Shown here: positions 9,382-52,666 of the stretch, piece by piece
Layout of the letters: each line of letters opens with the position of its first letter
Position numbering within the stretch: position 1 is the stretch's first letter
Notes under the pieces: model-generated
Seen by the model: the letters and a program-made list of their open reading frames with translations, nothing else
The model's database searches: none
Told to the model about the DNA's origin: nothing
Origin: Mesostigma viride
Lineage: Eukaryota; Streptophyta; Mesostigmatophyceae; Mesostigmatales; Mesostigmataceae
DNA: 64,000 bases
Assembly (NCBI GenBank): GCA_009746045.1
Contig: RPFO01000002.1
Location: forward strand, 1,170,240-1,234,239
Reading direction: 5' to 3'
Position numbers and translations under genes: made by a program

Positions 9382-9705
9382 GAGTTAATTTGAAGCCCCC
9401 GTAACCTGTCCGGTAACTTCGACGCCCCCGTAACCTGCCCGGTAACCTCGACGGGGCAGGTTACGGGTCCGTATTCGTTCAGGCGGTTTAGGTTACCGGA
9501 CCGGTTACGGTACCATTCGGAATATTGGCCCCGAGATTCGGTACGGCCCAATAACTGGGCCGGTTATGTTTACGGGGGCGTGAACGGCTTCGGTTCAGGT
9601 TATACGTTGGGGTATACGGGACGGGTCAGGTAGTGGGTACGGCGCCATAGCTGCCCCAATATTAGGTACTGGGCTGGTTACGGGGCCGTTATCGTTAACT
9701 GGATC
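9382..9705. repeat. Left subterminal GTAACC-rich zone of element G
   Basis: Right after the GAGTTAATTT end, the motifs CCCGTAACCTG, CCGGTAAC, GGTTACGG and GGTTACCGG recur in both orientations for about 320 bases. The same motif density is seen at 39890-40600 next to the other end and nowhere else in the window. Such clusters are typical binding arrays for transposases of elements with short TIRs. Confidence 0.65.
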
Positions 9706-10289
9706 GTAAACCGCGACATAGCTGGCTAGCTACGCATGCACACTGTGGAAGACGTAGAAGACGCGTTAATTGACGACGAAGACATTGGTAATTAAGTCTT
9801 TCGCAGTCAGGACAGCCTCTGTTGTGTATCGATGGAGGACGCGCGGGCCTGGGAAGCACGCTGGGTGGCAAAGCGCACAGCGGCAACCGCATTCGCAGAA
9901 GAATCTCTGGCAGCAAAGGTACGTCGGACCCCTCACAAGACGGCTGCCATGGGAATTAATGAATATAGTAGCTGAGAACGCATATGCGTATATGTCGTCG
10001 CCAGGGGACGCTGTCGCAGACTATAGCTTCTCGCAAAGGTTTGAGGGGATTCATAAAACGTATTGTGGCAAGGATGATGTGGGTATGGTTGTGTTCACCC
10101 TATCGTCGCAGTTGACCACCCTATCGTCGCAGCGGCATCACAGCGCTCAAAAGCTGAGGGGCCGCCATGCAATGTCCCTGTACTTTTTATTGCGCAGATA
10201 AGGAAGCGTTGTAGTGAGCACCATGTTGCATGGGTTGCATTCGTTATACTGCCTGTAGATAGTGGCCACGACTAGTTTATTTGAGCTTA

Positions 10290-10998
10290 CCCTTGTTGTA
10301 ATGATGTGACAATACTTCAATGTGGTGAGCCAACCATGCTTGATATGATCTGCTGCGTGCAAGCTGCCATAATACCGTGATCCAGTTGGATGATCCTACT
10401 TGGTTCCCTGTCCTCCATTGGCCATGTTTTTTGCCCATGTCAGTTAGCGCAGTTTATGATGTGTTGTTTTGTTGTTTAGCTGGGTTGGCATAGGCCTTAC
10501 ACTCTAACCCGGGGGAAACAGAGAAAATGCTGGTTAGGCACGTGAGTGCTACCGTCAGTGTTCACATAGTTGCCATGCACCCAGTGCATTGTCGTGTCTG
10601 CTCATCTGCCGGCTCACCGTGGCAGCGTTGATTTCTGATTTTCCCTTGTTGTAATGATGTGACAATACTTCAATGTGGTGAGCCAACCATGCTTGATATA
10701 ATTTACTGCACGCAAGCTGCCATAATACCGTGATCCAGTTGGATGATCCTACTTGGTTCCTTGTCCTCCATTGGCCATGTTTGTTGCCCATGTCAGTTAG
10801 GGCAGTTTAGGATGTGTTGTTTTGTTGTTTACCTTGGTTGGCATAGGCCTTACACTCTAACCCGGGGGAAACAGAGAAAATGCTGGTTAGGCATGTGAGT
10901 GCTACCGTCAGTGTTCACATAGTTGCCATGCACCCAGTGCATTGTCGTGTCTGCCTCATCATCTGCCGGCTCACCGTGGCAGCGTTGATTTCTGACTT
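10290..10998 (+). repeat. 353-bp tandem duplication
   Basis: A unit starting CCCTTGTTGTAATGATGTGA at 10290 is repeated from 10643 with only scattered differences and ends near 10998. It contains no recognised coding sequence. It lies upstream of the first clear exon of the protease-like gene, so it could be its 5' region, but no promoter element is evident. Confidence 0.8.
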
Positions 10999-11059
10999 GT
11001 TCCCCCGCTCCGCATGCGTTGGGATTCCGTTTTGGCGTTGCCGTTGAATACAGGTGAGG

Positions 11060-14000
11060 GAATGCAAAGAACCGCTTGACTTCTCTGAAGCATCAGCAAA
11101 GTTTGACGTACATGGCGACCCATGGAAGCGTGAGGCGGGGGCAATATACATGGAACAGGAATTGAAAAAATGGCATCAACAAAATCCCAAGCTGTGGAGC
11201 AGCCTGAAATTTGTAAAGAATGGAGTTGTGACCAGTACACTTCAGGGAAGTGTAGCGGTGAGTCACTCTCTTATTTTAGTTGGCGGCAATTTATTGCTGT
11301 GATGCAGGCTGCCATGCCAGCAGTCTTCCCTAATGTGTGTGGTAGGAGTACAAGACAAAGGCAGTTATGGTGCTGGCCTCTGCACTGACCCTGCCGCTAC
11401 ATGGTTGGTAATGTTGCTGCTTGGTTGGCTTTCCTTTGACGTGCATATCGTCCAATTCCGTAATGCAGAAAGAACGCCTAAGGAAGCACATCATTACCTG
11501 GAGCAGGGCACGAGAGGCAGCAGAAAAGAGAGAGGAAGAGAGTGAAAGAGAGGCGGCGAAGAAGCGCGAGGAACAGGATCGGAAAGGCAAGAGGCAGCGG
11601 GTGGAGGAACATGGCAACGAAGCCAGCGGCAGAGAGGAGCTGCGAGCAAGCATGTCAACTGCGGTGGATGCAGACGTGGGGGAGGCACATGCGGGGCAAG
11701 CATGTGTAGGCCTGGAAATCGTGCCAGGGCCCACCGTGATTGCAATTGCCGAGTTCCTGCTGAAGCGAGCACTGGCCTCATTGCCGCAGTTGGCAGCCAA
11801 CAACGCGACAATCACGGAAGTGGATGCTTTGTGCAAGGAAGAAAACTCGGGATCGGGGAGTCCAGCGGTGGACCTGATGAACAACACAGCCTGTGCCCTT
11901 GCAAATGCCGCGCTGCAGTTGGTCTCCAACTCCGTCCATGTTGATGGCAAGGTCAGTGGTGGCACAGTTTCTTCCTGTTTTGGGTATGACGCATAAATAA
12001 TTGCCCCTTGTATGTACGGGTGCGGTCGATTGACCTCCCTCCAGCAACATTGCAACATCCGTTACTGACGTCCACTGCATGTGGCGGATGCGTTCCTTCT
12101 GCATGGGGTTTGCCTTGTGTGCCGTTATTGTGCAGGGTGTCGTCAGTACATCGGATGCACTGGGGCCCCAGGCCGGTCAGGGGGGCATTCCAGCGGAGCA
12201 GCAAGCGAGTACATTGACACAGGAGGGGACAAGGCAGGCCGAGGTGGGGGGCAACACCGGGGGGGCGGCAGCAAAGGTGGAGCGGGGGAAGCAGGAGGAG
12301 GCGGGGGAAGCCAAGCCTGAGGGGGGTTGCGCCGGGGGGGAGGCAGCGAAGGTGGAGCAGGTGAAGCAGGAGGCGGGGAAGCCAAGGACGAGGAGGGGAG
12401 CAGCGCCGGGGGGAGGCAGCGAAGGTGGAGCAGGTGAAGCAGGAGGCGGGGAAAGCCAAGGACGAGGAGGGGAGCAGCGCCGGGGGGGAGGCAGCGAAGG
12501 TGGAGCAGGTGAAGCAGGAGGAGGGGAAAGCCAAGGCCGAGGAGGGGAGCAGCGCCGGGGGGGAGGCAGCGAAGGTGGAGCGGGGGAAGCAGGAGGAGGC
12601 GGGGGAAGCCAAGGACGAGGAGGGGAGCAGCGCCGGGGGGGAGGCAGCGAAGGTGGAGCAGGTGAAGCAGGAGGAGGGGAAAGCCAAGGCGAGGAGGGGA
12701 GCAGCGCCGGGGGGGAGGCAGCGAAGGTGGAGCGGGGAAGCAGGAGGAGGCGGGGGAAGCCAAGCCTGAGGGGGGTTGCGCCGGGGGGGAGGCAGCAAAG
12801 GGGAGCGGGTGAAGCAGGAGGAGGCGGGGAAGGGCAAGGCCGAGGAGGGGAGCAGCGCCGGGGGGCGGAAGCAAAGGTGGAGCAGGGGAAACAGGGTCAG
12901 GCGGGGCAGGGCAAGGCCGAGGAGGGGAGCAGCGCCGGGGGGGAGGCAGCGAAGGTGGAGTGGGTGAAGCAGGAGGAGGGGGGGAAGCCAAGGACGAGGG
13001 GGTCAAGACCAGAGGGGCGGCAGCAAACAGGAAGCGGGTGAAGCAGGAGGAGGGGGGAAGCCAAGCCTGAGGAGGGGGTCAAGACCAGAGGGGCGGCAGC
13101 AAAGGGGAAGCGGGTGAAGCAGGAGGAGGCGGGGAAGGGCAAGGCCGAGGAGGGGAGCAGCGCCGGGGGGGCGGAAGCAAAGGTGGAGCAGGGGAAACAG
13201 GGTCAGGCGGGGAAGGGCAAGGCCAAGGAGGGGAGCAGCGCCGGGGGGGCGGAAGCAAAGGTGGAGCAGGGGAAACAGGGTCAGGCGGGGAAGGGCAAGG
13301 CCAAGAAGGGGGGGAAGACAGGAGGGAAGACAGCAAAGGGCAAGCATGGGAAGAAGGTGGAGATAATCGTGGTGTCGAGTGATGATGAGGAGGATGAGAA
13401 GGCGGAGCCGAGGAACTTAGCGACCGATGAGAAGAAGAGCAAGGAAACACGCTGTCGGTTCTGTGTCATGACCGATAAAGTTTATCATAAACACCAGCAC
13501 CAGCGTCTGTACCCAAACAGACTCACCTTCACCAACTTTGAATCAGGCTGCCATGTGGACGCAGGTATCATGTTTGTCTGGGCGTTGATCCTCGCGTCCT
13601 ACTGGGGACGCATGTGGGGGCTGATTTTGATAGTTGGGAGAGCGCGTGGAGAGGCCCACTGCAGTGAACGATGCGAGGTGGGATGGCAGCTGATGCAGTG
13701 TGTGTGGTACCTAGCCTTTGGCACGCCGGACCATCAGGATTTCTACCAACCCAAGCTGGATGAGGCAAGGGACAAGCTACGAGATGCGCTTGCGAGGGTA
13801 TCCACAGATGTGAAGCCAACGGGAGAGGGCGTCCCAGATGCAACGGTGAGACTGTTGCTTGACCATGTCAAATTTTGCAACATCAAAGAGGGCAACTGGA
13901 TGTGCAAGCCCCCCCGCGTCACCGAGGAGCCTTCTTTTTCGCTTCTCGACCTCTCGTATCGCGAAGAAGCTCACCCCACGCCGCTGTCCGTCACCGACCG

Positions 14001-14478
14001 CATCAAAAAAGCGTGCCAGTCATCGCTGTGGGCACATCAAGCGCACGCCACGGAAGGTGAGCAGTATCCTGAACCACTGTGCTTCCACCCGCGCACGTTC
14101 GCTGAGATGCCCCCATACCTGGCCTTCTGCAACCTCCACAACTGGAAAACGCTGCCATGCAGGAAGTACAAGGGAGGGGATGTGCCAGTGACAGTGAAGG
14201 GGGTGCAGTTGATGGTGGATGGCAAGATGTGCACAGTCACATTGCGCCTATTTGCGCTCATCCGGTTTTATAGTTACAAACATTTCACGGCGCTGCTACC
14301 CGCTAGTGGATGGGGGGATGTGAATAACTGGAATGAGCACGACGGGATAGCGGCGAAGGGCAAGAACGGAGAGCCCCTGGCAAGGGTGCGGCACGTGGGA
14401 AACGTGACCACATACCTCGAGCAATGGGGCTACCACATGGTGGCTGCGGGATACCAGGTTGTACCGCCTAACTGCTGA
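11060..14478 (+). CDS. Spliced gene: coiled coil, E/K/G repeats and C19-like cysteine protease domain
   Basis: Several exons are suggested, with candidate junctions at about 11263 (donor GTGAGT), 11458 (acceptor before AAAGAACGCC), 11951 (donor) and 12137 (acceptor). The 11458-11950 part is a charged helix (REAAEKREEESEREAAKKRE) and then a hydrophobic helical region. A repetitive E/K/G/A segment follows (12250-13330), then an NLS-like and acidic stretch (VSSDDEEDE). The last 350 residues contain ESGCHVDAGIMF, and near the end KHFTALLPASGWGDVNNWNE followed by HDG. A Cys box followed by HFTA and W...HDG resembles the Cys and His boxes of ubiquitin-hydrolase-like (C19) peptidases seen in some large transposons. 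That assignment is inference from short motifs; exon ends are approximate. It is probably a native gene of element G. The stop is TGA at 14478. Confidence 0.45.
12250..13330 (+). repeat. Coding minisatellite of about 75 bp, G-rich
   Basis: Units of about 75 bp containing GAGGCAGCGAAGGTGGAGCA and GGGGAGCAGCGCCGGGGG recur more than ten times. In the favoured frame they encode blocks such as AAKVEQVKQEEGKAK and EEGSSAGG. Copy-number and 1-2 nt length differences move the frame between units, so the assembled frame is not reliable. Runs of G suggest quadruplex-forming potential on the plus strand. Confidence 0.75.
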
Positions 14479-14514
14479 GGTTATCCCACGAGACGCCCCA
14501 CCCACTTTCCACGC

Positions 14515-14670
14515 AGCCTGCTCTACAGCTGTAGGTGCACCAAGGGCACCTGCACCAGCATGATCTCTCAGAGCTCAAGGGGGGCCTGGCATGGGGTGGA
14601 AGATCAGCATGGCTATACAAAGGCTAGGGCATGGCTTCTCATCAGAGAGTGACTCTCTGCATACGTAGCG
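14515..14670 (-). repeat. SINE-like repeat A, partial copy
   Basis: Contains the reverse complement of the family core: GTAGGTGCACCAAGGGCACC, GATCTCTCAGAGC, GATCAGCATGGCTATA and AGAGAGTGACTCTCTGCAT. Related copies are at 15740-15890, 16060-16420, 20725-20836, 42670-42957, 46734-46960 and 51455-51758. Confidence 0.6.
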
Positions 14671-14794
14671 CTGGGCTAAATTCTGATAATGCATCATCCT
14701 GATAATGCACACATGTCACCATTGTCTCAGTTAATGCAATATGCAAGACACATTAATTAATTAATAAATTAGGAACATAACTCTGGGAGTACAT

Positions 14795-15739
<945 letters not shown>

Positions 15740-15740
<1 letters not shown>

Positions 15741-15890
15741 CACTTCATGCACCTGGAGCAGGTGTAGTTAACTGACATTACATCCTACCCTCGCAAGGAA
15801 GTAGCCCAGAATGTATTAAAGGCCATATGCACAGCTTCAGGGATATGTGCCAAATGTACTCCCAATGGAGTCATGTAATGAATTAATTAA
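15740..15890 (+). repeat. SINE-like repeat A, 3' part
   Basis: Contains GCAAGGAAGTAGCCCAGAAT, GTATTAAAGGCCATATG, ACTCCCAATGGAGTCATGT and the AATTAATTAAT end typical of the family. Confidence 0.65.
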
Positions 15891-16059
15891 TGAGGAACAT
15901 GACAGAGAGTGACTCTCTGCATAGGAAGCGCAGGGCTACATTCTTCATGCATCATCCTTGCCAGCATGACATGTCCCAACTGTTGTATTGTGGTCCGCAC
16001 ACATGTCACCATTGTCTCAGTTACACTAATGCAATATGCAAGACAGATTAATGAATGAA

Positions 16060-16420
16060 CATTACTCTGTTGCCATGCAGGGAGTACATGTAGCACATAT
16101 CCCTGACAAGGGCCATATGGCTTCCAATGCAGGTCTACCTAGAGATAGCCACGCGGCCTTCGCGTCTTTCCTCTCAGACAACTACCCTAGTCCTTCCACG
16201 GCGTTGGATCGCCATGCGTCCAGGCATAGCTGTCTCACTTCATATGGCTTTTAATACATTATTGGCTACTTCCTGCAAGGGTAGGATGTAAACTACACCA
16301 GCTCCTGTAGGTGCACCAAGGGCACCTGCACCAGCATGATCTCTCAGAGCTCAAGGAGGGCCTGGCATGGGCTGGAAGATCAGCATGGCTATACAAAGGC
16401 TAGGGCACAGGCATGATGAG
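16060..16420 (-). repeat. SINE-like repeat A, interrupted copy
   Basis: The 3' end (GGGAGTACATGTAGCACATA) lies at 16066-16125. The rest (ATATGGCTTTTAATACATTA to GATCAGCATGGCTATACAAA) lies at 16236-16400. About 110 bases of unrelated sequence separate the two, with the ATATGGCTT motif present on both sides. Confidence 0.55.
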
Positions 16421-17556
<1,136 letters not shown>

Positions 17557-17689
17557 CCTAAACACACAAGCATGCCAACGTTTATGCAAGGAAGAATTCA
17601 ATGTAGGGAAGAAGGGAGGGGAGTAAGGAAGAAGCCTGCTGCCGAGGGAGGGTGGAGGCAGGGATTAAGTGTTTACCTTTTTGTCATTC

Positions 17690-18056
17690 CGTGCAAACAG
17701 ATATTCACATGTACGTCAGCGTTGCAAGTAGCGCAGCAGCAATTCTTTTTGGGACAAGCTTCGTCTAAAAGTATAGTTTTGTTAGGATCGGAAGTCTGAA
17801 CGTCCCGGCTGTTACCGCTCGTTGTCTCTGGCACCACAATAACGTTGGCGCCTGGCGTCATTGGGATCGATGAGTCATTGGGATCACACGACGCACTTCC
17901 CTTACTGCCAGGAGGACCACTGGGGCGCGTTTTCTTCATAGGACCCGGCCTTTCCCTTGCTGCCGCCAGCCGAAGCGGCTCCATTATGCTTGGGCTTTCG
18001 AGCCATACCTCGCGTCTTTCCTGTTGAAAACACCCGTGTGTCCTGCGAAATAACAC
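17690..18056 (-). CDS. Possible first exon, basic protein, unknown function
   Basis: On the minus strand an open frame ends in DEACPKKNCCCATCNADVHV and then reaches a good donor (AAAAAG followed by GTAAAC) at about 17690. A second frame starts at an ATG near 18006 with ARKPKHNGAASAGGSKGKAG, so either the frame or the splicing is unclear. Basic, glycine-rich starts of this kind are common in transposon proteins. No downstream exon was found before the GGCA array. It sits just left of element K and, with K removed, would be divergent from the 28209-29750 gene. Confidence 0.25.
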
Positions 18057-18169
18057 AGCCGCTCAGCCGGTGATAAACGTTAAGCTACGCCGGCAGCTTC
18101 CCCCCCTCCCTATAAAGATTTATCCAACTATATTAAAAACCAACAGAGAATACCTGCTTGCATTGGAGG

Positions 18170-18700
18170 CACTATGTACTCCACACTATGTACTCTTGGA
18201 GTACATAGTGTGGATTACATAGTCACTCCTTCCTATGTAATACGGGCGTGTCTCACCGCGTCGGCAGTCCCCTATTCGGAAATCCCGGATCATATGTACT
18301 CCGGACTATGTACTCTTGGAGTACATAGTGTGCCACCCTATGTACTCTTGGAGTACATAGTGTGGAGTACATAGTCACTCCTTCCTATGTAATACGGGCG
18401 TGTCTCACCGCGTCGGCAGTCCCCTATTCGGAAATCCCGGATCATATGTACTCCGGACTATGTACTCTTGGAGTACATAGTGTGCCACCCTATGTACTCT
18501 TGGAGTACATAGTGTGGAGTACATAGTCACTCCTTCCTATGTAATACGGGCGTGTCTCACCGCGTCGGCAGTCCCCTATTCGGAAATCCCGGATCATATG
18601 TACTCCGGACTATGTACTCTTGGAGTACATAGTGTGCCACCCTATGTACTCTTGGAGTACATAGTGTGGAATACATAGTCACACCTTCCTATGTAATACG
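18170..18700 (+). repeat. Left 152-bp repeat array of element K
   Basis: The motif CACTCCTTCCTATGTAATAC recurs at 18224, 18376 and 18528, with a variant at 18680, giving a period of exactly 152. Each unit has two palindromes of the form CTATGTACTC-TTG-GAGTACATAG and a unique block ending GGAAATCCCGGATCATATG. The same units appear reverse-complemented at the other end. Confidence 0.9.
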
Positions 18701-18705
18701 GGGGT

Positions 18706-18850
18706 GTAATCATATGTAATCATGTGTAATCATCGGTAAAAATCGGTAATCATTTGTCCTTTTTTGGTAATCATGTACGTGTAATCATGTGTAATCATGT
18801 GTAATCATCGGTAAAAATCGGTAATCATTTGTCCTTTTTTGGTAATCATT
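18706..18850 (+). repeat. Short tandem repeat of GTGTAATCAT units
   Basis: Two copies of a block of about 70 bp hold several GTAATCAT motifs and a TTTGTCCTTTTTTGGTAATC segment. It adjoins the 152-bp array and precedes the kinase gene by about 160 bases, so it may be part of its 5' region. Confidence 0.7.
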
Positions 18851-19014
18851 TCGGTCAGGGTCACGTGTGCTTGTCTGCATGATCGATCGTCCAGACAAGC
18901 TGCACTGCCCCCAAGACCCTAAGTTACACAAGATGATGTTGTTGGGTGTTGAAATGGAACAACGAAGGTCGAAAGCCTGCGCTTAATGTAAATTATTAAT
19001 TACGAGCGACCACC

Positions 19015-20457: not shown

Positions 20458-20460
20458 CCG

Positions 20461-20635: not shown

Positions 20636-20724
20636 GTACAGTATGATTACCCCATATTCATCTTAAGTGGAAGGACATATGCTACTCGTGCATGTGGTGT
20701 GTGCCCGAGTAGGTGGCAGTTTAC

Positions 20725-21372: not shown

Positions 21373-21375
21373 CCT

Positions 21376-27973: not shown

Positions 27974-28208
27974 TCTCCAATGCAGCAGCACTCCGCTATG
28001 GACTGGACTCATGACGACTGCCCGAAGCAGCTCCTCTGCGAGTGAGCCACGTGGACCGGGGCCGACGCGTCGCCTTGATTTTTGAATTTCCGAACGCGCC
28101 AGACCATACCGCCGCGTTACATTTTGCACGAGCGCACACTTGAAAGCCTCACCAGTGCCCAGAATGCAGCACCAGTGCCCAGAACGCAGCGCAGCAGCGG
28201 AAGTGAAT

Positions 28209-29750: not shown

Positions 29751-30139
29751 TAAATGGCATTAGCGGAAGACAATAATTACTATCCACAACTTGTGCACGG
29801 TATACAATGGCATCAGGCCATGCCTTGGCTGGACCCCAAGTCCAGACTTACCACCAGCTGGTAATGTTACGCTAGGTGGAACCTTGTATTATGGCAGGAC
29901 CTTGAAGACATTGATGATGATACTGCCTTTGAATACTCTGTGTTTTTCTGATGTGAGCCAATGATGCTATATGTTTTATCATGGTGGGCCGCACCTTGTC
30001 TTTTACACTTACACTTATGGGCTGGTTTTTTTTAGTATGTTAAAATCTGAACCGTTTATTAAAAATTTATCAAGATGCGACATTTCCCATGCTTTTGGCC
30101 ACCTAAACCACCTGCCACATGCCCTGGAACTGTGCCCTA

Positions 30140-30390
30140 GTGATGCTCTAATATGCCCCATGCCCCATGGCTCATGCCCCATCATGCCCCATGCCCCATG
30201 CCCTTCTACTGCATGTTCGATGCTCCATGCCACACATGCCACGAACCGCAAGCCAACTGTCAAACATCGTTGCTCCCATTCCCCCATACCCCATGCCCCA
30301 TGCCCCATGCCCCATGTGCCCAAAACCAAGCCCCCCATGCCCGGCCATATGGCCTAATTGCTCCATGCTCCATGCCCCATGCACCAATTA
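30140..30390 (+). repeat. ATGCCCC-type simple repeat
   Basis: Irregular repeats of CCATGCCC/CATGCCCCATG extend for about 250 bases near the left end of element D. Proline-, methionine- and histidine-rich open frames here are artefacts. Confidence 0.8.
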
Positions 30391-30800
30391 AGTGCCCTGG
30401 CACATCCCATGCCATATTACAATGCGCGTGATTTTCATCAATGATGTGTGTGTGTGCTTCTTGCGCCTACTTGCCTGTGTTATGACCATGCCAATGCAGT
30501 TTGAAGTCACAACAACTACTGATCAAGGAGCTGCAGTCCAAGTATATTGCATGAGGGACCCAGCACAAGAACCTTTATGATGTCAAGTGCAGCTGGGCAC
30601 TGTCAAGACGAAATGGCACGGCCAGCTTACATGCTGACTCTCTTGGCCATCACATTTTTCGCAAGCCCAATACCTTGTCATCCTGCTATGTCCAAGGTAG
30701 CCACTAAAAGCCAGCCACATTGGCAAGAAAGTTGTCTCCACCGATAGGTCACTACACCTTGGTCACTGGTCAGCCACTAACAAAAGGATGGCAGCACCTA

Positions 30801-32627
30801 CTATTGCATGTGACACCCGCTAGGTTGCCCATAGATGCTGCCGTTGAACTGGTACGGCAACCCGCGCCCCGCGCTGGCATTGCCATGGTACGCCGACAGT
30901 GGCAGAGCGCCATGGGACTCAGAACGGCTGTTAGGTACTAGGAGGCATGCAAAGCGATCCATCGTGTCTGCCAGCCGGTGCATGGCTAGCTGTACACCAT
31001 GGTCAGCTGCCATGCCTGAATGGTTGAGAACACCGCGGTCGCTCATGCTTCTGACTGCTGATGTATCGCCCATGCCGATGCCCAGCAACCCATAGTTTCG
31101 CTGCAACTGCGGCTGAACAGGCTGCAACATCTGCTGCAGGAACTGCTGCTGCTGCTCCCGCGGCTGCTGCTCCACTAGATGCCACATCTGGTGCAAAAAC
31201 TGCAACCTCGTTTGCGGCTGCAGCTGCGGTTGTGGCTGCTGTGGCGGAGGCGGTGGCGGCGGGGATGGCACCGGCTGCAAGTGCGGCTGCGACTCCAACA
31301 TGTCCAACAGCTGCTGCAGGATCGGCTGACTTGTTTGCGATGGCTGTGGTGATGGTGGTGGCGGCAGAGGCTGCTGCCGTTGCAGCAGTGGCCACGGCAG
31401 TGACGGCAGCGACTGCGGCTGCTGCGATGGCAGCGACTGCGGCTGGTGCGACGGCAGCGACTGCGGCTGCTGCGACGGCAGCGACTGCGGCTGCTGCCAC
31501 GACAGCGACTGCGGCTGCTGCGACTCCTCCCCGCGCTTACGTAGCTGCGCCACCTCTTCCTCCAACTTGCGCCGCTCTTGCTCCAACTTGCGCCGCTCTT
31601 CCTCCATCTTGCGCCGCTCTTCCTCCATCTTGCGCCGCTCTCCAGCTGCATTTTCCAGCTCCTTAGTGTACTGCTGCAGCTTGTTGTCAGATGCGCGCTG
31701 CACGCTTTGCCTGGTCGCCAGTCGCTGTGCTTCCTGGTGTGCAAGCATGGTTTCATCGTCGGTGTCTGTAATCATCATGTCCGCACCATGACCAATCCAA
31801 TCCTCATCGTCATCCACAGACACCACAGCAACCCTGCCTTTAGCTGCCCTGGATACGCCCTTAGCTTGGCAATTGGATGTTGGTGGAATGTTTTCCTTGT
31901 CAGCAGAAGGTGCCACCTTCCTCTTTTGTCTTGTTGCCGTGCTTGCCGCTGCCTTTGGCGCGGGTGCAGCTTTGGACCCGGCTCCCTTGGATCCCGCTGC
32001 CGTGGTTGCCGCTGCCTTGGGCGCGGGTGCAGCTTTGGACCCGGCTCCCTTGGATCCCGCTGCCGTGGTTGCCGCTGCCTTGGGCGCGGCTCCAGCCCTG
32101 GTCCGGGTCGCTGCCGTAGGCTCTGCCGTGGGCGCACTCGGTTCGATGACCTTGGTTCGCTGGCTCTCTGTTTCTGTGGCCGGCATGGCCGTGATCGCTG
32201 GAGTTGGTTGGCCAGGGGTAATGGAGCTCACCGCATGGGCCAAAGCCGCTGTTGCGGTGAGATTGTGCAGTGCGTTGTGGCACTGCTGGACCGACAAGAC
32301 TTGGAGCCCACCGGTAACCTTCATGACTGATTTGCTCCCGCGCCTCACGAATGGTGTGCATGGAGGCTCATCAGTGGCGGTGCAGCGCAGGTAATAGAAT
32401 TCATGCCAAAGTCGCAGCGTATTCTCGTCACAATGCTGACGCACCCGACTGCATGATCGATTGTCGGGCCCGACCCTGCAGTTTGTAGGTGCCAGCACGA
32501 AACCGGCATTTGGGTGCACAATAACCACGCAGCACGCTTGGTCTGACACGTAGCTGTGTGGGGCGACCACGTCACCCACACTGACTTGACAAAATTGTCC
32601 AGCAGCATTTGTCCAGGAGACCGTTCC
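30801..32627 (-). CDS. Element D protein with BAH-like N-terminus, coiled coil and Q/P-rich tail
   Basis: The open frame is preceded by an acceptor-like CTTGTGCAG just upstream of 32627, so an earlier exon is likely. The first about 90 residues (GTVSWTNAAGQFCQVSVGDV, VAPHSYVSDQACCVVIVHPN) look like a small beta-rich module, perhaps BAH/Tudor-like. An A/T/K-rich stretch follows with duplicated GSKGAGSKAAPAPKAAA units. Then come an acidic patch (SVDDDEDW), a strong coiled coil of ERRKMEE/ERRKLEQ heptads, and a long Q/P-rich region. The end (ADHGVQLAMHRLADTMDRFA) is again helical. This looks like a DNA- or chromatin-associated accessory protein, but no family is recognised. Confidence 0.55.
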   Translation of the reverse strand, partial: GTVSWTNAAGQFCQVSVGDVVAPHSYVSDQACCVVIVHPNAGFVLAPTNCRVGPDNRSCSRVRQHCDENTLRLWHEFYYLRCTATDEPPCTPFVRRGSKSVMKVTGGLQVLSVQQCHNALHNLTATAALAHAVSSITPGQPTPAITAMPATETESQRTKVIEPSAPTAEPTAATRTRAGAAPKAAATTAAGSKGAGSKAAPAPKAAATTAAGSKGAGSKAAPAPKAAASTATRQKRKVAPSADKENIPPTSNCQAKGVSRAAKGRVAVVSVDDDEDWIGHGADMMITDTDDETMLAHQEAQRLATRQSVQRASDNKLQQYTKELENAAGERRKMEEERRKMEEERRKLEQERRKLEEEVAQLRKRGEESQQPQSLSWQQPQSLPSQQPQSLPSHQPQSLPSQQPQSLPSLPWPLLQRQQPLPPPPSPQPSQTSQPILQQLLDMLESQPHLQPVPSPPPPPPPQQPQPQLQPQTRLQFLHQMWHLVEQQPREQQQQFLQQMLQPVQPQLQRNYGLLGIGMGDTSAVRSMSDRGVLNHSGMAADHGVQLAMHRLADTMDRFACLLVPNSRSESHGALPLSAYHGNASAGRGLPYQFNGSIYGQPSGCHMQ

Positions 32628-32787
32628 CTGCACAAGTCGCGGTATGGGAAGACAAGCAATGCAATTTACATAAAAACGCAAGCACTAGTCAGCTACCATT
32701 CCCGTTGAATCACAACCAACAAGCAAGCCATAGTCTAGGTGACTGAAGCTAAGTTCAATTGGAGTGCCTTCCTACCAAGAGAAACAG

Positions 32788-32950
32788 ATTCCCTCGCGGG
32801 GGCGTGCAAACTCAGGCATAGCGTATAGGGCGCGTGAAAACGGCAAAGGCAAAGCGGAGCCCGCCGCCTTGCGGCGGGCTCCGCTTTGCCTTTGCCGTTT
32901 TCACGCGCCCTATACGCTATGCCTGAGTTTGCACGCCCCCGCGAGGGAAT
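32788..32950. repeat. 163-bp near-perfect palindrome
   Basis: Arms of about 80 bases from ATTCCCTCGC (32788) to CGGAGCCCGCCGC pair exactly with the second half ending GCGAGGGAAT at 32950, around a CTT centre at about 32869. The same protein can be read on both strands, as expected. It lies just upstream of the coiled-coil gene's exon. It could be a fold-back insertion, a hairpin end scar or a regulatory cruciform. Confidence 0.95.
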
Positions 32951-33077
32951 ATAGCCCGCAGCCCTACCGCTTTGCAACCCCCCACGAGTGAAATTTTATA
33001 TTTTATAGTGCCAAGCCGTGCAGGGTTTTATATACACACAGTGTAGAGCACTACTGTACACACAGTCTATAGCATTG

Positions 33078-33749
33078 TCAACCAAGCAAATCCAAATACA
33101 TGTCACAGAAACAGTTTTCCTTCAAACACACCTGGTATAACGAGCCGCCAGGAGCAAACTCGACTGGCGAGGTGCCCTCACTCTGAGAAACCAAAGGAGT
33201 TTCAACAGGAACTCCTACAGTGATAGGAACTCCTTCCGCCGTCGCGTTGCTCAGCGTCGTTTGCAGCACTTCACCGGACGGCTGCACATCGCCGTTCGCC
33301 AGCCCGGCTGAGATTTCCGGCAAGTGGCTCTGCGGCGTTTCCTGTGTGACCCCAGATGTCGCAGCCGTTACCGGATGCGTGATTCCTGGTGAGGACCCTG
33401 CTCCGAAATCCACCTCTAGCTGCCGTGAGGTGGGGTCGTTGGGACGCAGCCTAAACCTGTTAGCAAAGGCAGCCATGGCATCGTCTGGGGCATCTCCTGG
33501 TAACTGAGCATCGGGCACCGTGCACTGCACACATTTCCAAACCGTCTGTCCACTGCTGTTAGTACCGGTAGGGTTTGGTGACAGCAAAAACGTGCATGCA
33601 GCATGCGCCTTTCTCCCACACTTTCCGGAGCATTCACAGGTAGCACCCTTAAGAAACTTAGGGTCATTGCCATTTGCTGAGGCTACATGGCACTCTGCGA
33701 TACCAGCCTCACAGTTAGCATCGTCCAATGCATCGTCGGCAGTAGCCAT
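33078..33749 (-). CDS. Element D PHD-like zinc-finger protein, 223 aa
   Basis: Starts at an ATG at 33749 (MATADDALDDANCEAG). Residues about 13-80 hold an ordered set of metal ligands: C-x6-C-H, then CECSGKCGRKAHAACTFLL, then WKCVQC. The Cys-rich start, CxC, HxxC and W-x-C-x-x-C fit a PHD/RING-like treble-clef finger, where the W before the last pair is typical of PHD. The rest is low-complexity, proline- and threonine-rich. It is divergent from the transposase-like gene, sharing the symmetric repeat region between them. It may bind chromatin or target the element; that is inference. Confidence 0.55.
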   Translation of the reverse strand: MATADDALDDANCEAGIAECHVASANGNDPKFLKGATCECSGKCGRKAHAACTFLLSPNPTGTNSSGQTVWKCVQCTVPDAQLPGDAPDDAMAAFANRFRLRPNDPTSRQLEVDFGAGSSPGITHPVTAATSGVTQETPQSHLPEISAGLANGDVQPSGEVLQTTLSNATAEGVPITVGVPVETPLVSQSEGTSPVEFAPGGSLYQVCLKENCFCDMYLDLLG

Positions 33750-33894
33750 ATGGGAGAAACCTCACGTAATTGTTACCGATCATACGCCATCCCCGGTTGA
33801 TCAATTCGCTTTGCGACTTGCGGGCACAAGGTTTTACGGGTGAACTCCCGCGCTCACAGCCTCCGTTGAGCAAACCTGTTTCAATTGCCAACCG

Positions 33895-34388
33895 AGATGT
33901 CAAGTTGTCAAACGAGATGTCAAGTTGACAACCGAAGTGCCTCCTGAACTGTCAACTAAAAGTCTAAAGCCGCAATCGACAGTACTACAAGTTGACAGTT
34001 CAGAAGGTAGGTCGGTTTTGCGCAATTGCCTACCTTCTGAACTGTCAACTAAAAGTCTAAAGCAGCAATCGACAGTACTACAAGTTGACAGTTCAGAAGG
34101 TAGGTCGGTTTTGCGCAATTGCCTACCTTCTGAACTGTCAACTAAAAGTCTAAAGCCGCAATCGACAGTACTACAAGTTGACAGTTCAGAAGGTAGGTCG
34201 GTTTTGCGCAATTGCCTACCTTCTGAACTGTCAACTAAAAGTCTAAAGCCGCAATCGACAGTACTACAAGTTGACAGTTCAGAAGGTAGGTCGGTTTTGC
34301 GCAATTGCCTAGTTGACAGTTCAGGAGGCACTTCGGTTGTCAACTTGACATCTCGTTTGACAACTTGACATCTCGGTTGGCAATTGAC
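33895..34388. promoter_or_regulatory. Symmetric inter-gene region with four 93-bp repeats
   Basis: Outer arms, ACCGAGATGTCAAGTTGTCA at the left and its reverse complement at the right, enclose four head-to-tail units of exactly 93 bases (GTCAACTAAAAG at 33951, 34044, 34137 and 34230). Each unit contains a hairpin pairing GACAGTTCAGAAGGTAGG with CCTACCTTCTGAACTGTC. The motif TTGACA/TGTCAA recurs throughout. It lies between divergent genes starting at 33749 and about 34743, so a shared promoter, a transposase-binding array or a replication site are all possible. Confidence 0.75.
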
Positions 34389-34742
34389 CATCTCGTAATT
34401 TGGTGCCTGCAAGTCGGTGAACAACCTGTCAGCTCGCCGACCAACTCGACTTCCCGCCTAACTCAGGTGCTTCCCCGCGTATTATGCATGACACTTCACT
34501 GCCAGGTTGGCTTGTCCCACGCCAACCTGCGTACTTCCGCGGCAACTGCATTTTGCCACTGTCGACTAACTGCTTGTGAATGTGTTACGAGGTAGTAATG
34601 CATTACGAGGATGAACTGATGTAAATGTGTGGAAATTAGGTCAGTCTTCTGTAGGAGTTGTGCATTGACTACTAGTTTCTCTATCAGTCTGTCATGTGGA
34701 CAGGTCCACGTTCAGTTGACAGCTGCGCACCATGCGTTGAAA

Positions 34743-37616
34743 ATGGCGTCTTCTTGTTCGAGGTCAGCCACCCCCGGCGGCAGGACAGCAGCCTTTGTCG
34801 ACAGGGATGGTAGCGTGTGCGTCACCAATGTTGGCTCCCTCGGCACGGATTCTAACCAGCCGGGGGCAGCTGGCTGCCTTGGTAGCGAACGCAGGCAAGC
34901 AGGGAGAAAGAGCATCGCCACGGTGCGGTCGGAGAAACTGGTGGACAGCGTCATCGTCGCTGACATGAGCCTTATTCGCACATGCTGCCAAAAGGATTGC
35001 ATGGGACCAGTCGGCACCTCAGTCCGGGATTTCCGAGTCTGGTGTGCAGCCAGAGAAAAGTACCTTGGCTTGCAAAAGCAGGAGGAGCGCAGCCAATTCG
35101 TGGTCAGTCTGCTGCAGAAGCACGGACTTCAGAACATCGTCGTCGAGCCGCCGGGAGGCACGCATCCGATTTATTGGAAGTACGATGTGAAGGGCCAGAT
35201 GTCCCTGCCTGTGAGCATGCCAAATGGTGACAAGGCCGAGATTGTCGCCTGCCACAAGGTTATCCAGGCTGTCCTGTGCATCTCGGCACCTGTGTGGCAC
35301 AGTCTCTTGAAGGCGGCGGTGCATGCAGAGTCTGTGCACGAGTCGGGCGAGTTCGCCTACGATGATATCACCCTCGACGAGCTAGGCTTGACCTCTGAAC
35401 AGCTGCAGCAGGCAGACAAGGCGGCGCGGATCACCGGTCGCAGTGAGGTGAGGGAGGTGACTGCCAATTGGATCATTGCGTACGCGCAGAGCAAGGGCGA
35501 CTACAACCCAGCGAGCGGTGAGAATGTGGTGCAGCTGGACCTCGACTGTCTGAAGCTGATCTGGGAGCAGGACTACTGCGAGGATGTGCGTAGCATGGTG
35601 GGCGACCACCTGAACTACAAGGCCTTTCGTGAGGTGTGGCTCAAGGTGGCAGAGGGCAACTACCACCCTGGCTCCCCCAAGATTGTCTTCAGGATTTTCA
35701 AGCGCAATGCCGGCATCTGCAACGACTGCGCCAACCTCAGGGAGATGCGGAGGGGCATCGGGCAGCGGCAGGACCTGCGCGCCACGTACGAGAAAGCGTG
35801 GGCCCTGCACAACGCAAGCCACCGAGATGAGAGGCGATACTTCTACGAGCGCAGGCACGAGTTCATGCTCGCGCTGTGTCTCTGGGCGTTCCTGCAGATC
35901 GTCATCGACAAGATGGACAAGCAGAAGAGCCGCGTGCCTTTCCTCTCCAACGGCTCCGATGTGTGGAAGCAAGTGGCTGACGGCGTGTTCCCGTTTTCCT
36001 GGTACGCGTGCGTGGTGCATGGCTGGAAGGCCCTCTTTTACTGTGGCCTGCCCTACTTGTTGACCAAGGGGCAGACGGGCTCCCTTACTGTCACCATGCT
36101 GATGGATGCTCTCTCGCTGGTGTGCAAGGCTGAGCCATGGGCGAAGGACGGGAGGCCAATGCCACCTGACCTCCATGTGCAGGTTGACGGGGGGAGCGAA
36201 AACCGAAACAACACGGTGCTGTGTTGGGCCGGGATGCTGGTGGCCACCGGCATGTTCAAGAACGTCTTCCTGCACCGCCTGCTGAGGGGCCACTCGCACT
36301 GTGACCCAGACCAGATGTTCGGTATCGGTGTGGGTTACATGAAGGACGGACGCTCCGGCTTGGAGTGCACACCCTATGCGACGCTAGAGGCGTTTATCGG
36401 GGGCTGGAAGGATGCCTTCAAGAACTCAGATGCCGACCCGACCAAGATGCGTCACGTGCCGGACGGGACGATGGTGCGGATGCTGGCTCAAGCCTACAAC
36501 GTGGCCGCCTGGATCGCAAAGCATAAGGACAAGGACTTGGCTGGGTGGGCCAACAGCGCCGATTTTTGCCAAGACATCGGGCCCGACAGCATTCCCTACA
36601 AGGGGCCATCGTCAGCTAAGCCGCACCACACCCATTTTCGCAAGGCCGAGGATGGCCGGGCATATTTCGGGTGGCAGCTTCTCCGCCGCGGCACCTGGTT
36701 CCCGGTGGGCTTTAAGGAAGGACAGCCCATGTACACCGAGGACGGGGAGGTTTACTATGGGTGCCGGGTGTTTGCTCCAGGCACGCCGATGGAAGACCTG
36801 GAGACGCCGCCGCCCTGGTGTCCGTTCGACGCGGACTGGTTCAAGAATGAGCTCCCGCGCATCAAGCGAGTGATTGCGGGCATCCCTGGCAACCCGAACC
36901 TGCGGCGCTATTTCTCGAGCTGCATGCCTGAGCTCCTGTCGTGGGGCGACTGGCTGGACAAGCTCCCAAGGCAGCCCGGCGCAGTCCCAGTGGAGTGGGA
37001 AATCGAGCCGTGGCTGACACCCGCCATGGTACGTGCCATTCGCGGCCGTGCACCGGCAGCGCCTACTCCCGAGCTGACGCGGGACGAACGTCTGGTGGAG
37101 CTGGCCACAGAGGCGGCTCGCATCGCGCAGCCCCTGGTCGAGCCGGTCCGCCACGCCGGCTTCACGCAGGCTGCATGGGAGCGGGCGAATCACCGCATCG
37201 AGCTGCAGGTCGCGTCACGCACCGCCTGCGATGCGTTGAAAGCAGGTGACAGTGTTCTGGCAGTCTTGCCGGAGCACGTGGCGTCAAGCCCCACGTGGAC
37301 GCCAGTGGTCTACGCCACCGTGGCGTCCGTGGTGCCACCTCAGGTAGGCACGGAGGGGCAGCGCTACGAGCTGGAATGCTTCCGCGCACCGTCTTACTTT
37401 GGGAAGTGGCAGCGCTGGAGCCCTCACTCGGCCATTTGTCCACCGCCGAGAGGGGTGCCGAAGCACACTTTTCAGGTGGCACCCTCGTCCATCCTCTTGT
37501 CCACGTGGAACAAGGGGAAGAAGAAGTATGCCGTTTCACTCAGCAAGGACGGCGTGCTGCTGAAAAACACAAGGGACGCCATCGCCAACACGCCCGCGCT
37601 AGTCACACGGCGATGA
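34743..37616 (+). CDS. Element D transposase-like protein (DUF7869-type RNase H-like core)
   Basis: The frame is open from 34629, but the first good ATG is at 34743 (AAAATGGCG; MASSCSRSATPGG), giving about 957 residues. Early parts have a CCQKDCMGP cysteine cluster. The core has three blocks in order: IVIDKMDKQKSRVPF (about 35900-35945), DLHVQVDGGSENRNN (36170-36212) and RGHSHCDPDQMFGIG (36283-36330). An Asp in 'D.MD..K', an Asp in 'D...GxNxN' and 'GHxHxDxD' are shared by a broad family of transposon proteins annotated as DUF7869 and probably form an RNase H-like active site. The C-terminal part (AGDSVLAVL...WQRWSP) may be a Tudor/BAH-like module. Family membership is from memory of the motif pattern. 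Confidence 0.65.
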   Translation: MASSCSRSATPGGRTAAFVDRDGSVCVTNVGSLGTDSNQPGAAGCLGSERRQAGRKSIATVRSEKLVDSVIVADMSLIRTCCQKDCMGPVGTSVRDFRVWCAAREKYLGLQKQEERSQFVVSLLQKHGLQNIVVEPPGGTHPIYWKYDVKGQMSLPVSMPNGDKAEIVACHKVIQAVLCISAPVWHSLLKAAVHAESVHESGEFAYDDITLDELGLTSEQLQQADKAARITGRSEVREVTANWIIAYAQSKGDYNPASGENVVQLDLDCLKLIWEQDYCEDVRSMVGDHLNYKAFREVWLKVAEGNYHPGSPKIVFRIFKRNAGICNDCANLREMRRGIGQRQDLRATYEKAWALHNASHRDERRYFYERRHEFMLALCLWAFLQIVIDKMDKQKSRVPFLSNGSDVWKQVADGVFPFSWYACVVHGWKALFYCGLPYLLTKGQTGSLTVTMLMDALSLVCKAEPWAKDGRPMPPDLHVQVDGGSENRNNTVLCWAGMLVATGMFKNVFLHRLLRGHSHCDPDQMFGIGVGYMKDGRSGLECTPYATLEAFIGGWKDAFKNSDADPTKMRHVPDGTMVRMLAQAYNVAAWIAKHKDKDLAGWANSADFCQDIGPDSIPYKGPSSAKPHHTHFRKAEDGRAYFGWQLLRRGTWFPVGFKEGQPMYTEDGEVYYGCRVFAPGTPMEDLETPPPWCPFDADWFKNELPRIKRVIAGIPGNPNLRRYFSSCMPELLSWGDWLDKLPRQPGAVPVEWEIEPWLTPAMVRAIRGRAPAAPTPELTRDERLVELATEAARIAQPLVEPVRHAGFTQAAWERANHRIELQVASRTACDALKAGDSVLAVLPEHVASSPTWTPVVYATVASVVPPQVGTEGQRYELECFRAPSYFGKWQRWSPHSAICPPPRGVPKHTFQVAPSSILLSTWNKGKKKYAVSLSKDGVLLKNTRDAIANTPALVTRR

Positions 37617-38263
37617 AATGGGATGGCTACGTCTCCCAGCAGGCGACTGAGGACTCCGCAAGCCGCGCGTTCCAGGATCTCGTGGCTGGCGGGATTCCGG
37701 TGGGCACGCGCGTGTGCGCCATGTTTCAGGCAAGGCGGGAGCACGGCAGGGTGGCGGCGGTGGATGCCGCTCGTCAAATGGCCCTCATCCGCTGGCAAGA
37801 TGACCCGACTCATGCATGGGAGGAGGAATCATATTGGCATCAATGCTCATACCTGAACCTGCAGTCCCTTTTGTGTTCGTGCCCTGGGATCGTTATCCCA
37901 CAGCTTGAGGAGGGCATTCTTGCAGCGGGGGACCTGAAGCTGCAGGGCTCGGCTGGGCAGACTGCAGGGGCTGAGCCTGACGTGGCCGAGGAGGATGCAT
38001 CCGCACATGCGGAGCCTTCTACGCGAGGCGGTAGGGGCGTGCAGACTCGTGGGAGGCGCGGGCAGCCGCCAGCGCACCCGGCAGCTGGCACAAGTCGTGC
38101 GGCACCCCTCGGAGGAGGGAGGAAGCAGTTGAGGCGGGCGGCAACTGCCACGCGTCACTCCTACAATGCTGCAGATTTGGAGGACAGTGACTTGGGCGAG
38201 GAGGATGTGGAGGAGGCCAGCCAGCCCAGCGACGAGGAGAACGACAGCATGGATGATGACTGA
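37613..38263 (+). CDS. ORF overlapping the transposase stop, acidic C-terminus
   Basis: An ATG (MKWDGYVSQQATEDS) overlaps the transposase stop in an ATGA arrangement and opens a 216-codon frame. The N-terminal half has a compact module (GTRVCAMFQARREHGRVAAV, MALIRWQDDPTHAWEEESYW) resembling a chromo/Tudor-like 'variable-charge-aromatic' fold. The rest is G/R-rich and ends in SDEENDSMDDD. In a eukaryote this is more likely the true C-terminus of the transposase reached through a frameshift error or an intron than a second cistron. Confidence 0.5.
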   Translation: MKWDGYVSQQATEDSASRAFQDLVAGGIPVGTRVCAMFQARREHGRVAAVDAARQMALIRWQDDPTHAWEEESYWHQCSYLNLQSLLCSCPGIVIPQLEEGILAAGDLKLQGSAGQTAGAEPDVAEEDASAHAEPSTRGGRGVQTRGRRGQPPAHPAAGTSRAAPLGGGRKQLRRAATATRHSYNAADLEDSDLGEEDVEEASQPSDEENDSMDDD

Positions 38264-38514
38264 ATACATTGTCTTGCCTTGTGTGGCACGGGTGGTGTGG
38301 GCGGCATGGGCCAGCCGGGAGTGTAGGGTGGTCGAGATGCTTAATTGCATGGCGTGTATTATGCTTGGTGTGTGGCATGCCGTGACATGACGGGATGACA
38401 TTACGGCATGGGTGGGCTGCTCGGTGGCCATTGTGGTCTGTCTTACAATAGCACTAGTGGCACCCGCTGGCTTCGCCCAGCCCAAAACAGGGTCCCTTTT
38501 TTTGGCAGTACTTC

Positions 38515-39238
38515 GCCCCGCTGCCCGCTGCCCGCAGCCCGCAGCCCGCAGCCCGCTGCCCGCTGCGCGCTGCCGGCCGGGCCCACTTCAAATGTTCCGC
38601 CGTCCAAGCCAAGTGTGTGACACTTTTTCGCTATTTTCGCAAAAAAAAAATAAAATTTCGCACGAGTTCGCGTGATTTTCGCGTGATTTTCGCAAAATTT
38701 TCACACATTTTCGCACGATTTCGCACGATTTCGCACAATTTTGCATGATTTCGCACAATTTCGCATGGATTTCAACCAAGGGTCGTTTTGGGGAGTGACG
38801 TTTGACAAAATTTCGCATGAATTCACACACGTTGTGCACATCAAAATTTTTTACCGTCGACATTTTTCACATGAAATTTCGCACAATTTCAGCAAATTTC
38901 GCACAAATTCGCACGATTTCAGCAAATTTCACACGATTTCAGCAAATTTCGCACAATTTCGCACGATTTCGCACGACGAATCACTCTGCAGAGTGACGAT
39001 CGTCGAAAAAGTCAAAAAAACGACCAAAAGTGTCACACTTTTCGGAACATTTGAAGTGGGCCCGGCCTGCCCGCTGCATGCCCGCTGCCCGCTGCCCGCT
39101 GCCCGCTGCCCGCTGCGCGCTGCCCGCTGCCCGCTGCCCGCTGCGCGCTGCCCGCTGCCCGCTGCCCGCTGCCCGCTGCCCGCTGCCCGCTGCCCGCTGC
39201 CCGCTGCCCGCAGCCCGCAGCCCGCTGCCCGCTGCCAA
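38515..39238. repeat. Fold-back structure of GCCCGCT and TTTCGCAC simple repeats
   Basis: GCCCGCT-type repeats (38518-38575 and 39060-39235) bracket an inverted pair, GGGCCCACTTCAAATGTTCC at about 38580 and its reverse complement near 39045. Between them lies an AT-rich core of TTTCGCACAATTTCGCACGA units. It resembles a small non-autonomous insertion within element D, but no duplication was identified. Confidence 0.6.
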
Positions 39239-39889
39239 GATGACCATATTTAATGCTGGTGAATGCAATTGGTGGTCACCTTCCGCGGAGCCGCGATCTT
39301 GCTATCAGGCTACTATGGCACTAGTTAACAATTATGATAGCAAGCACGCAATTGAAGCCAGCCTGTCAATGAAGTGTTACTGTTCCACATGTTGATCATC
39401 AAGACGCCTCATACCTGTGCCATGGTGTCAGTTACATGATTGCTTTTATACCATATTGGAGTCATGAATAGTGCATTACATAAGAACTGGCTCCAAGTGC
39501 GGCACTGGTCCTCAAATCAAGCATTATTTGAGCAGCAAATCAGAAGTTGCAGCTCGCCCACATTTGACGCTACCCGAGCCGAGATGTAAAACCTGGACGG
39601 CAAGTGTATGTGGTGTTGAATGGAGCAATCCATGTGTGGTAAGCATGGGGAACAATCACACATTAATCCCTTGTTCCTTTTCACATAGTTAGCGTAACAG
39701 TTTATGACGAAACAACAAGAAATAAAGCAGAAATAAAGATTCAAGGGTTTATTAAAAATATAAACCCTGGATTTTAACATACTAAAAAAAACCAGCCCTA
39801 TGGTTCTCTGAATAAATTATTTTAATATCATATGTATGTGCATAATAAATTGTTAGAGACTGTCTACATCAAATCCTGCATTTTGAGAT

Positions 39890-40616
39890 CCATAACCAAG
39901 ACGGTAACTAGTTATGGGTTTGGTTACTGGGCCATAACCATGGCAGTAACCAGGCCTGTTTACGGGGCAATAACTAGTAATGGTTACTGGCCTGGTTACG
40001 GGCCAGTAACCAGGCCCGTAACCTGCCCCAGTACATAATACCGGACCAGTAACCATGGCAATAACCAGGACCGTTTATGGCGCCGTAACTAGTAATGGTT
40101 ACTGGCCAGGTTACGGGCCCGTAACCAGGACAGTAGCCATGCCCGAGACTGGCCCGTAACCTATGCTGATGCCAAATACCGGACCCGTAACCATGCCAGT
40201 AACCATGCCCGTTTACGGGTCAGTTACTTGTACAGGTTACGGGCCCCGTAACCAGGCCAGTAACCCATCCCGGTTATCAGAACTGGTCCCGTAACCATGC
40301 CGGTAACCCATCCCGGTTCTCAGAACTGGTCCCGTAACCATGCCAGTTTACCGCCCGGTAACTTCTACTTGGGCCGTAACCATGACCGTAACCCAGATAG
40401 GTTACGGGCATGGTTACGGCTCCGGTAAAAGTTACCGCCCAGTAAACGCTCCGGTAACTATTACCGCCCGGTAACCATTACCGGCCGGTATTTAGTCTGT
40501 TGCATTCCGGGTTACCGGCCGGTAACCTGGCCGGTAACCTTAAACGTACATGGTTACCGGCCAGTAACCGCCCCGGTAACCTCAACCGGGGCGTTTACGC
40601 CCCGTAAAATTAACTC
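39890..40616. repeat. Right subterminal GTAACC-rich zone of element G
   Basis: More than thirty GTAAC/GTTAC motifs in both orientations (GGTTACGGGCCAGTAACC, CCGGTAACC and similar) fill about 700 bases up to the AAATTAACTC end. This matches the left zone in motif though not in length or order. Confidence 0.75.
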
Positions 40617-52661: not shown

Positions 52662-52666
52662 CAGGG

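Follow-up and report, generated by a model that had tools for sequence, protein, structure and literature searches.

A multi-copy, gene-rich CACTA-ended DNA transposon of Mesostigma viride with later insertions and a hypervariable protein domain

The window analyzed here, a stretch of 64,000 nucleotides from the Mesostigma viride assembly (G000:C1591:1170240-1234239), contains a large DNA element that has inverted ends, a GTAACC-rich zone at either end, genes on both strands, and two later insertions. Copies of the element were sought throughout the assembly (440 Mb, 2243 contigs); as described in the available part of PMC6947507, the NIES-296 assembly was built from PacBio, Illumina, and optical-map data and is 66% repetitive. 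One protein of the window matches the Mesostigma viride gene model jgi Mesvir1 6999 at 100% identity over 80% of the query; by tblastn, 803 residues contain a single difference. The initial annotation of the window placed the element at 9382-40616 and gave it a length of 31.2 kb; comparison with other copies moves its boundaries outward to 9376 and 40626, and only about two thirds of the claimed length, ~21.0 kb, is its own DNA. The boundary features are as follows.

9376-40626: whole element with later insertions, 31,251 bp; CACTAG...CTAGTG termini common to other copies
9374-9375: left 2-bp target duplication, CA, from flank comparison
9376-9391, plus strand: left terminal inverted repeat, CACTAGGAGTTAATTT, unchanged among all 15 copies
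9395-9720: left GTAACC-rich subterminal zone
39880-40600: right GTAACC-rich subterminal zone
40607-40626, minus strand: right terminal inverted repeat; in the window copy, an additional CTAG precedes CTAGTG
40627-40628: right 2-bp target duplication, CA, from flank comparison

Ends and copies of the element

GAGTTAATTT and its reverse complement are each present a single time in the window, at 9382 and 40607, respectively. These ends recur genome-wide, and the large element with inverted ends that had been proposed is supported. In searches with 619 bp of the left end and 737 bp of the right end (40 matches scored of 179 and 166 candidates, respectively, window included), 36 of the 40 left-end matches begin at query base 1, and 37 of the 40 right-end matches extend to the last query base. 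Pairing by hand among the scored matches, using those on one contig and in one orientation, joins left and right ends at no fewer than 17 places besides the window, so further copies with the same ends do exist. The spans listed are 22.2 kb (C1912, C2009), 23.2 kb (C1690), 26.9 kb (C1391, C1513), and 27.7 kb (C1502), and the longest is 68.5 kb (C1824b), giving a range of 22-69 kb. Longer spans contain other insertions, e.g., an ~8.5-kb element bounded by long terminal repeats (LTRs) in C1824a. Matching 2-bp flanks are found at 13 of the 17 paired places; C1801 lacks a match, and C1391b, C1535, and C887 lie outside the flank reading. For C113, a right end estimated to lie within 2 kb was absent there, and the right-end search put it ~5 kb further.

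The exact boundaries come from 15 copies with both ends, the window counted. CACTAG followed by GAGTTAATTT forms the left end in all 15, and the DNA just outside CACTA is unrelated between copies. On the right, AAATTAACTC followed by CTAGTG, i.e., the reading AAATTAACTCCTAGTG, is found in 13 of the 14 non-window copies; the right end of C1801 is altered, and that of the window, CTAGCTAGTG, has an extra CTAG. The same 2 bp stand on both flanks in 14 of the 15 rows, and their sequence is variable (CA, CA, GG, AG, GA, TG, AA, TC, TA, TA, CT, GG, CT, TG). Because the flanks of C1912 match those of C2009 on either side, these rows look like a single insertion represented on two contigs, and the 2-bp duplication holds in 13 of 14 distinct insertions. 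These two are also the shortest pairs, and one insertion seen twice would be either a duplication or a redundant contig.

From the shared termini and matching flanks, the inverted repeat is 16 bp long, CACTAGGAGTTAATTT, and 2 bp of the target are duplicated. The end comparison places CTAG inside this CACTA-type repeat, thereby ruling out CTAG as the target-site duplication, which is how the direct CTAG flanks had been interpreted. CTAG-N10 inverted pairs number five in the window and average 0.0 in 40 first-order Markov sequences of 64 kb; four of the five belong to one dispersed repeat. The proposed GTAACC-rich zones at both ends are confirmed, with 37 of the 51 GTAACC/GGTTAC words of the window located at 9382-9720 and 39880-40616.

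The near-alike copies and their clean duplications suggest recent activity of the family. A stretch at L029:873-5704 and the C119 copy (L015) share with the element ~350 bp of its left end and a gene 1 stretch of 90-91% similarity, with differing DNA in between; they probably represent a second subfamily.

Insertion site and internal organization

The target of the window copy can be read directly from an uninterrupted relative. C1824b holds a Copia relative without the insertion, whose pieces are 84% and 90% identical to the window flanks and which crosses from left-flank to right-flank sequence without a break (CAGGACCCCAAGGTCCAGG). This is direct evidence for insertion into the gag region, as initially annotated. 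The empty site predicted at the same time was ACACTAGCTAGTGC; an unoccupied relative does exist, but its site does not read so. The gag frame was also said to reopen with a single CTAG: one frame is open across the joined window flanks, but it is not the frame in which the CCHC-type continuation of gag is found. Over the 250 bp of the unoccupied relative, no frame contains a stop, so the frame test decides little there and the continuity of the sequence is the evidence. No Copia gag relatives turned up in a protein search. Elsewhere in the window, 52666-60698 is an element of LTR type whose two 699-bp direct repeats are 99.6% identical.

The interior of the element combines standing parts with later additions:

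18173-18849: internal 152-bp repeat array, left arm; continues into neighboring element DNA in all seven copies that reach it
27405-27974: internal 152-bp repeat array, right arm, inverted; joined to element DNA in 2 of 2 copies
23319-23790: later small-repeat insertion, 472 bp, GTACTA duplicated; all five copies tested lack it and have an empty site
30019-39798: later insertion C, a separate transposon with terminal inverted repeats GGGCTGGTTTTTTTTAGTATGTTAAAATC and a TAT duplication; empty site in C446

The two inverted 152-bp repeat arrays bound a block at 18.2-28.0 kb. We compared this block in 10 fetched copies, of which seven reach its left edge and three do not. Alignments cross the left edge in all seven (C557, C446, C1391, C1801, C1824b, C113, C2022) and the right edge in both copies that reach it (C1801, C446). 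This continuity refutes a nested transposon with ends GCATTGGAG, and by sequence comparison the block, which carries the kinase and transposase-like genes, is a standing part of the element and not chance cargo. Of the two 9.8-kb transposons initially annotated inside the element, only the one at 30019-39798 is thus separate: C446 reads ACACTTATGGTTCTCTGAAT, the empty site with a single TAT. Subtracting the later insertions leaves 31,251 - 9,783 - 478 = 20,990 bp of own DNA.

Insertion C (9.78 kb) has 29-bp ends and two divergent genes, a zinc-finger-like gene on the minus strand and a DUF7869 gene on the plus strand (34620-38263). Set beside the characters of PIF/Harbinger elements, it shows a 3-bp TAT duplication with an empty site, and DUF7869 is the only Pfam family matched; its DUF7869 protein may be an unrecognized transposase. 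The literature searched yielded no mention of DUF7869. P0001, a DUF7869 relative in a cluster of six members, ends in 31 residues that, except for one chance 5-mer, are not encoded in the window. Inside the same transposon, 32788-32950 forms a perfect 80-nt fold-back with a 3-nt spacer. The small dispersed repeat occupies three places in the window (5011-5468, 23319-23790, and 61686-62164), and near-pure, very long microsatellite arrays occur at 14795-15740, 17062-17556, and 45824-46584.

Genes and the hypervariable end of gene 1

The element encodes several genes:

11463-11963, plus strand: gene 1, internal exon; 96% identity to part of the annotated protein Mv11830
12221-13311, plus strand: gene 1, 78-bp tandem repeats
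13372-14475, plus strand: gene 1, hypervariable C-terminal domain; cysteine-protease-like by eye only
17676-18005, minus strand: gene 2, cysteine-rich exon(s), with 97.8-99.1% identity over 17676-17900 in seven copies
19000-20457, plus strand: protein kinase gene, Pfam PF00069, E 8.7e-10; present in the seven copies reaching there
24339-27020, minus strand: transposase-like gene with C(2)C and H(3)H motifs, a GTAAGT donor, and a weak match to BAH
23797-24231 and 21889-22806: further open reading frames (ORFs), grouped with the transposase-like gene
28194-29747, plus strand: gene 3, three probable exons

Gene 1 ends at 14478, and conserved cysteine and histidine stretches in its C-terminal domain give it a putative cysteine-protease-like character; no Pfam family matched gene 1 above the cut-off. 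In the minus-strand gene (27020-24339), CGFC is followed by the GTAAGT donor and then, downstream, by HGIKH; its BAH match (E 1.4e-4) is below the cut-off. Searches of solved structures gave nothing useful. Mv11830 (P0003, in a cluster of 10 members) is an annotated protein that fuses gene 1 exons with the kinase. Its gene 1 part differs from that of the window, so another copy shares the gene order, and the gene model was built on a transposon.

Across seven comparisons with the window, bin means at 13360-14478 differ by 2.7-8.0%, versus 0.0-1.1% in most other bins. Exceptions are 13315-13360 at the edge of the tandem array (11.8%), 10280-11004 (2.3%), 11004-11466 (1.5%), 15745-16240 (5.0%), 17560-17900 (3.8%), 18860-19018 (2.9%), and, with one copy each, 28194-28706 (6.3%) and 26100-27020, 27020-27400, and 27980-28194 (1.6-2.3%). 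The intergenic stretch 15745-16240 differs by 6-7% in four copies versus 0.4% in C557, a pattern that suggests mosaic copies.

We fetched 10 more copies and kept, for the gene 1 end, the 14 of 20 other copies with more than 900 aligned columns, which with the window make 15 (C999, C119, C1801, C1690, C446b, and C2111 are left out). The proportion of nonsynonymous differences (pN) exceeds that of synonymous differences (pS) in 97 of 105 pairs, with means of 0.070 and 0.047. Where coverage extends 221 bp past the stop (66 pairs), this flank differs by 0.0067, whereas pS is 0.033 and pN 0.053. Amino-acid variation affects 121 of 364 codons, and 18 vary only synonymously. Synonymous to nonsynonymous counts (S:N) between the window and close copies are 3:14, 1:15, 1:22, 2:40, and 1:35, with binomial p values of 0.45, 0.097, 0.022, 0.002, and 0.001 that are neither independent nor corrected (neutral synonymous share 0.224). 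Computed in the same copies, pN/pS is 1.89 for the gene 1 end (S 41, N 270), and the control regions give 0.42 for the kinase (S 21.2, N 27.8; seven copies), 0.30-0.39 for the transposase-like ORFs, 0.30 for gene 3 exon 2, 0.98 for gene 3 exon 1, and 1.00 for the gene 1 exon at 11466-11954 (S 5, N 16); ORF 21889-22806 has S 0 and N 2. Amino-acid change is thus elevated in the C-terminal domain of gene 1, and this excess may reflect diversifying selection.

Interpretation and relation to known transposons

We read the element as a multi-copy, multi-gene CACTA-ended DNA transposon of ~21 kb, with a proposed cut-and-paste mechanism of the CMCT type (CACTA/EnSpm-Mirage-Chapaev-Transib), later enlargement, and possible diversifying selection on gene 1; we put the probability of this reading at about 0.88. 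Cut-and-paste movement is most likely, in which a putative DDE-type CMCT transposase encoded on the minus strand at ~27.0-24.3 kb would act on the 16-bp ends, and an element-encoded DNA-binding protein would probably bind the GTAACC repeats. Spm/En TNPD and TNPA, as presented in the available part of PMC2613891, provide a model for the roles of the ends and subterminal repeats, and by this analogy the subterminal repeats are most likely binding sites. Insertion duplicates 2 bp; the window copy entered a Copia gag region and later grew by the DUF7869 transposon (9.8 kb) and the 0.5-kb repeat. The C-terminal domain of gene 1 would change as if facing a target that keeps shifting, within the host or among rival copies, for which host silencing, proteolysis, and rival copies are candidates. 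An extension of this idea, which we regard as unlikely, is that the variable patches of the gene 1 protein are positively selected and swapped between copies as a cassette, so that a CACTA-ended giant transposon with its own kinase would also carry an arms-race or copy-recognition protein that is not a transposition enzyme.

Several observations weigh against our reading or parts of it. None of the ORFs and read-through frames tried gave a match to a Pfam transposase model, and the transposase assignment of the minus-strand gene depends on motifs recognized by eye. In 14 of 15 rows 2 bp are duplicated, and not the 3 bp of strictly defined CACTA/EnSpm elements. The wide pairs (up to 69 kb) contain other DNA; C1801 lacks 11690-16221 and hence most of gene 1; and the fold predicted for the gene 1 end from a single sequence was unusable (mean predicted local distance difference test, pLDDT, 38.6). 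For the selection signal, a tree-based parsimony count is milder (1.50, p 0.02, 8 sequences), and window pairs are near neutral for C1824a (0.92) and C557 (1.24), with C113 (5.30) at the other extreme. An in-frame stop codon is present in C447, and frame-breaking indels in the gene 1 end occur in 10 of the 14 other copies, all except C113, C1824a, C1535, and C1824b; these indels may reflect decay or assembly error.

The variability of the gene 1 end could accordingly have arisen by exchange with diverged alleles, by decay under relaxed constraint, or by repeat assembly error, an explanation to which we give somewhat less than an even chance. Besides the indels, it draws on signs that alleles have been exchanged: C2022 is 100% identical to the window in the kinase versus ~92% in the gene 1 end, a contrast that points to exchange between lineages, which is able to mislead selection tests, and C1824a reaches a pS of 0.052 in the gene 1 end. 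However, synonymous changes are scarce in the close pairs (1:15, 1:22, 2:40, and 1:35; 3:14 is weaker) compared with the ~22% expected under relaxed constraint, an absence of constraint would predict ~9.8 nonsense states and one stop codon is found in one sequence, and assembly error should also strike the 3' flank, which differs by 0.67%. As to overall structure, a nested stack, in which an ~11.6-kb element received two independent 9.8-kb transposons, would account for the long inverted 152-bp arrays at the bounds of the 18.2-28.0-kb block and for its own kinase and transposase-like genes. It would also fit Mv11830, which joins gene 1 and the kinase as though two things had fused, and C119, in which a reversed block piece (18261-19197; ~15.0-16.0 kb of the fetched stretch, L015-L016) lacks its usual left neighbor at 17.6-18.2 kb, a further point against an integral block. 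We consider such a stack very improbable, given that the block edges continue into element DNA in every copy reaching them, that no block-free copy with an intact site is seen among the 10 fetched (three not reaching the place), and that no duplication is visible by eye beside the block. A viral or virus-derived integrated element (e.g., Polinton-like) is more improbable still. Large size, several genes, and the protease-like stretch would suit it, as would a Pfam match of gene 3 to a phage protein, which is at chance level and below the cut-off (E 0.03). Against it stand the CACTA ends with 2-bp duplications and the Pfam scans of all six frames of 9382-14381 and 27980-32979 and of the long ORFs tried elsewhere, which matched no capsid, protein-primed polymerase B, or packaging ATPase family; viral-contig pattern scans, which detect close relatives only, found none for the gene 1 end, the DUF7869 protein, or the transposase-like ORF.

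The preferred reading, a CACTA-ended transposon family, adds to an early-branching streptophyte alga a large, gene-rich family with near-identical copies and clean 2-bp duplications, which blur the 3-bp rule that defines CACTA elements. If the selection signal is true, the family is a natural panel whose members diverge chiefly within a single protein domain, and it lets one ask what a transposon protein races against. Mv11830 is also a warning, being a gene model made from transposon exons with a kinase domain. Among the matches listed, no paper on CACTA/EnSpm/transposase contains the word Mesostigma, and those listed for CACTA, positive selection, and hypervariability include one on transposons (PMC12730594), the others being mostly plastome or gene-family studies.

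The initial annotation took the make-up of the element to be undescribed, which applies to part of it. Its ends are close to those of CACTA/EnSpm elements, with CACTA...TAGTG termini at 15 of 15 left and 13 of 14 non-window right ends and subterminal repeats in the end zones, and a CACTA/EnSpm element of 20.5 kb has been published, soybean Tgmt* (PMC2613891). Tgmt* likewise has CACTA ends, subterminal repeats, a length of ~20 kb, and several gene products, but it duplicates 3 bp, and a Pfam transposase match is what the Mesostigma element lacks; the available part of that paper makes no mention of a kinase or a fast-evolving gene, both of which the Mesostigma element has. As described in the available part of PMC12730594, CMCT elements share CA..TG ends in most cases, duplications of 2 to 5 bp, and C(2)C and H(3-4)H motifs between the second D and the last E of the DDE transposase, and lineages such as Plavaka and ESTA also carry accessory genes. 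The ends and duplications of the Mesostigma element agree with this pattern, CGFC and HGIKH stand in the correct order with the GTAAGT donor between exons, and the acidic residues are assigned by eye. In its ends and duplications the element fits the CMCT (CACTA-like) clade, with 2-bp instead of 3-bp duplications. Within that clade (PMC12730594, same part), PlavakaA has TGT..ACA and PlavakaB CATCA..TGATG termini, in contrast to the CACTA ends here, and ESTA duplicates TA, whereas the Mesostigma element duplicates varied 2-bp sites in our sample. Polintons, Terminons, and giant gypsy elements, covered in the available part of PMC6431247 on giant eukaryotic transposons, are likewise large and rich in genes, but their enzymes differ from those of the Mesostigma element. 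Relative to these systems, what looks new is the pairing of CACTA ends with a 2-bp duplication, along with the gene load and the hypervariable domain.

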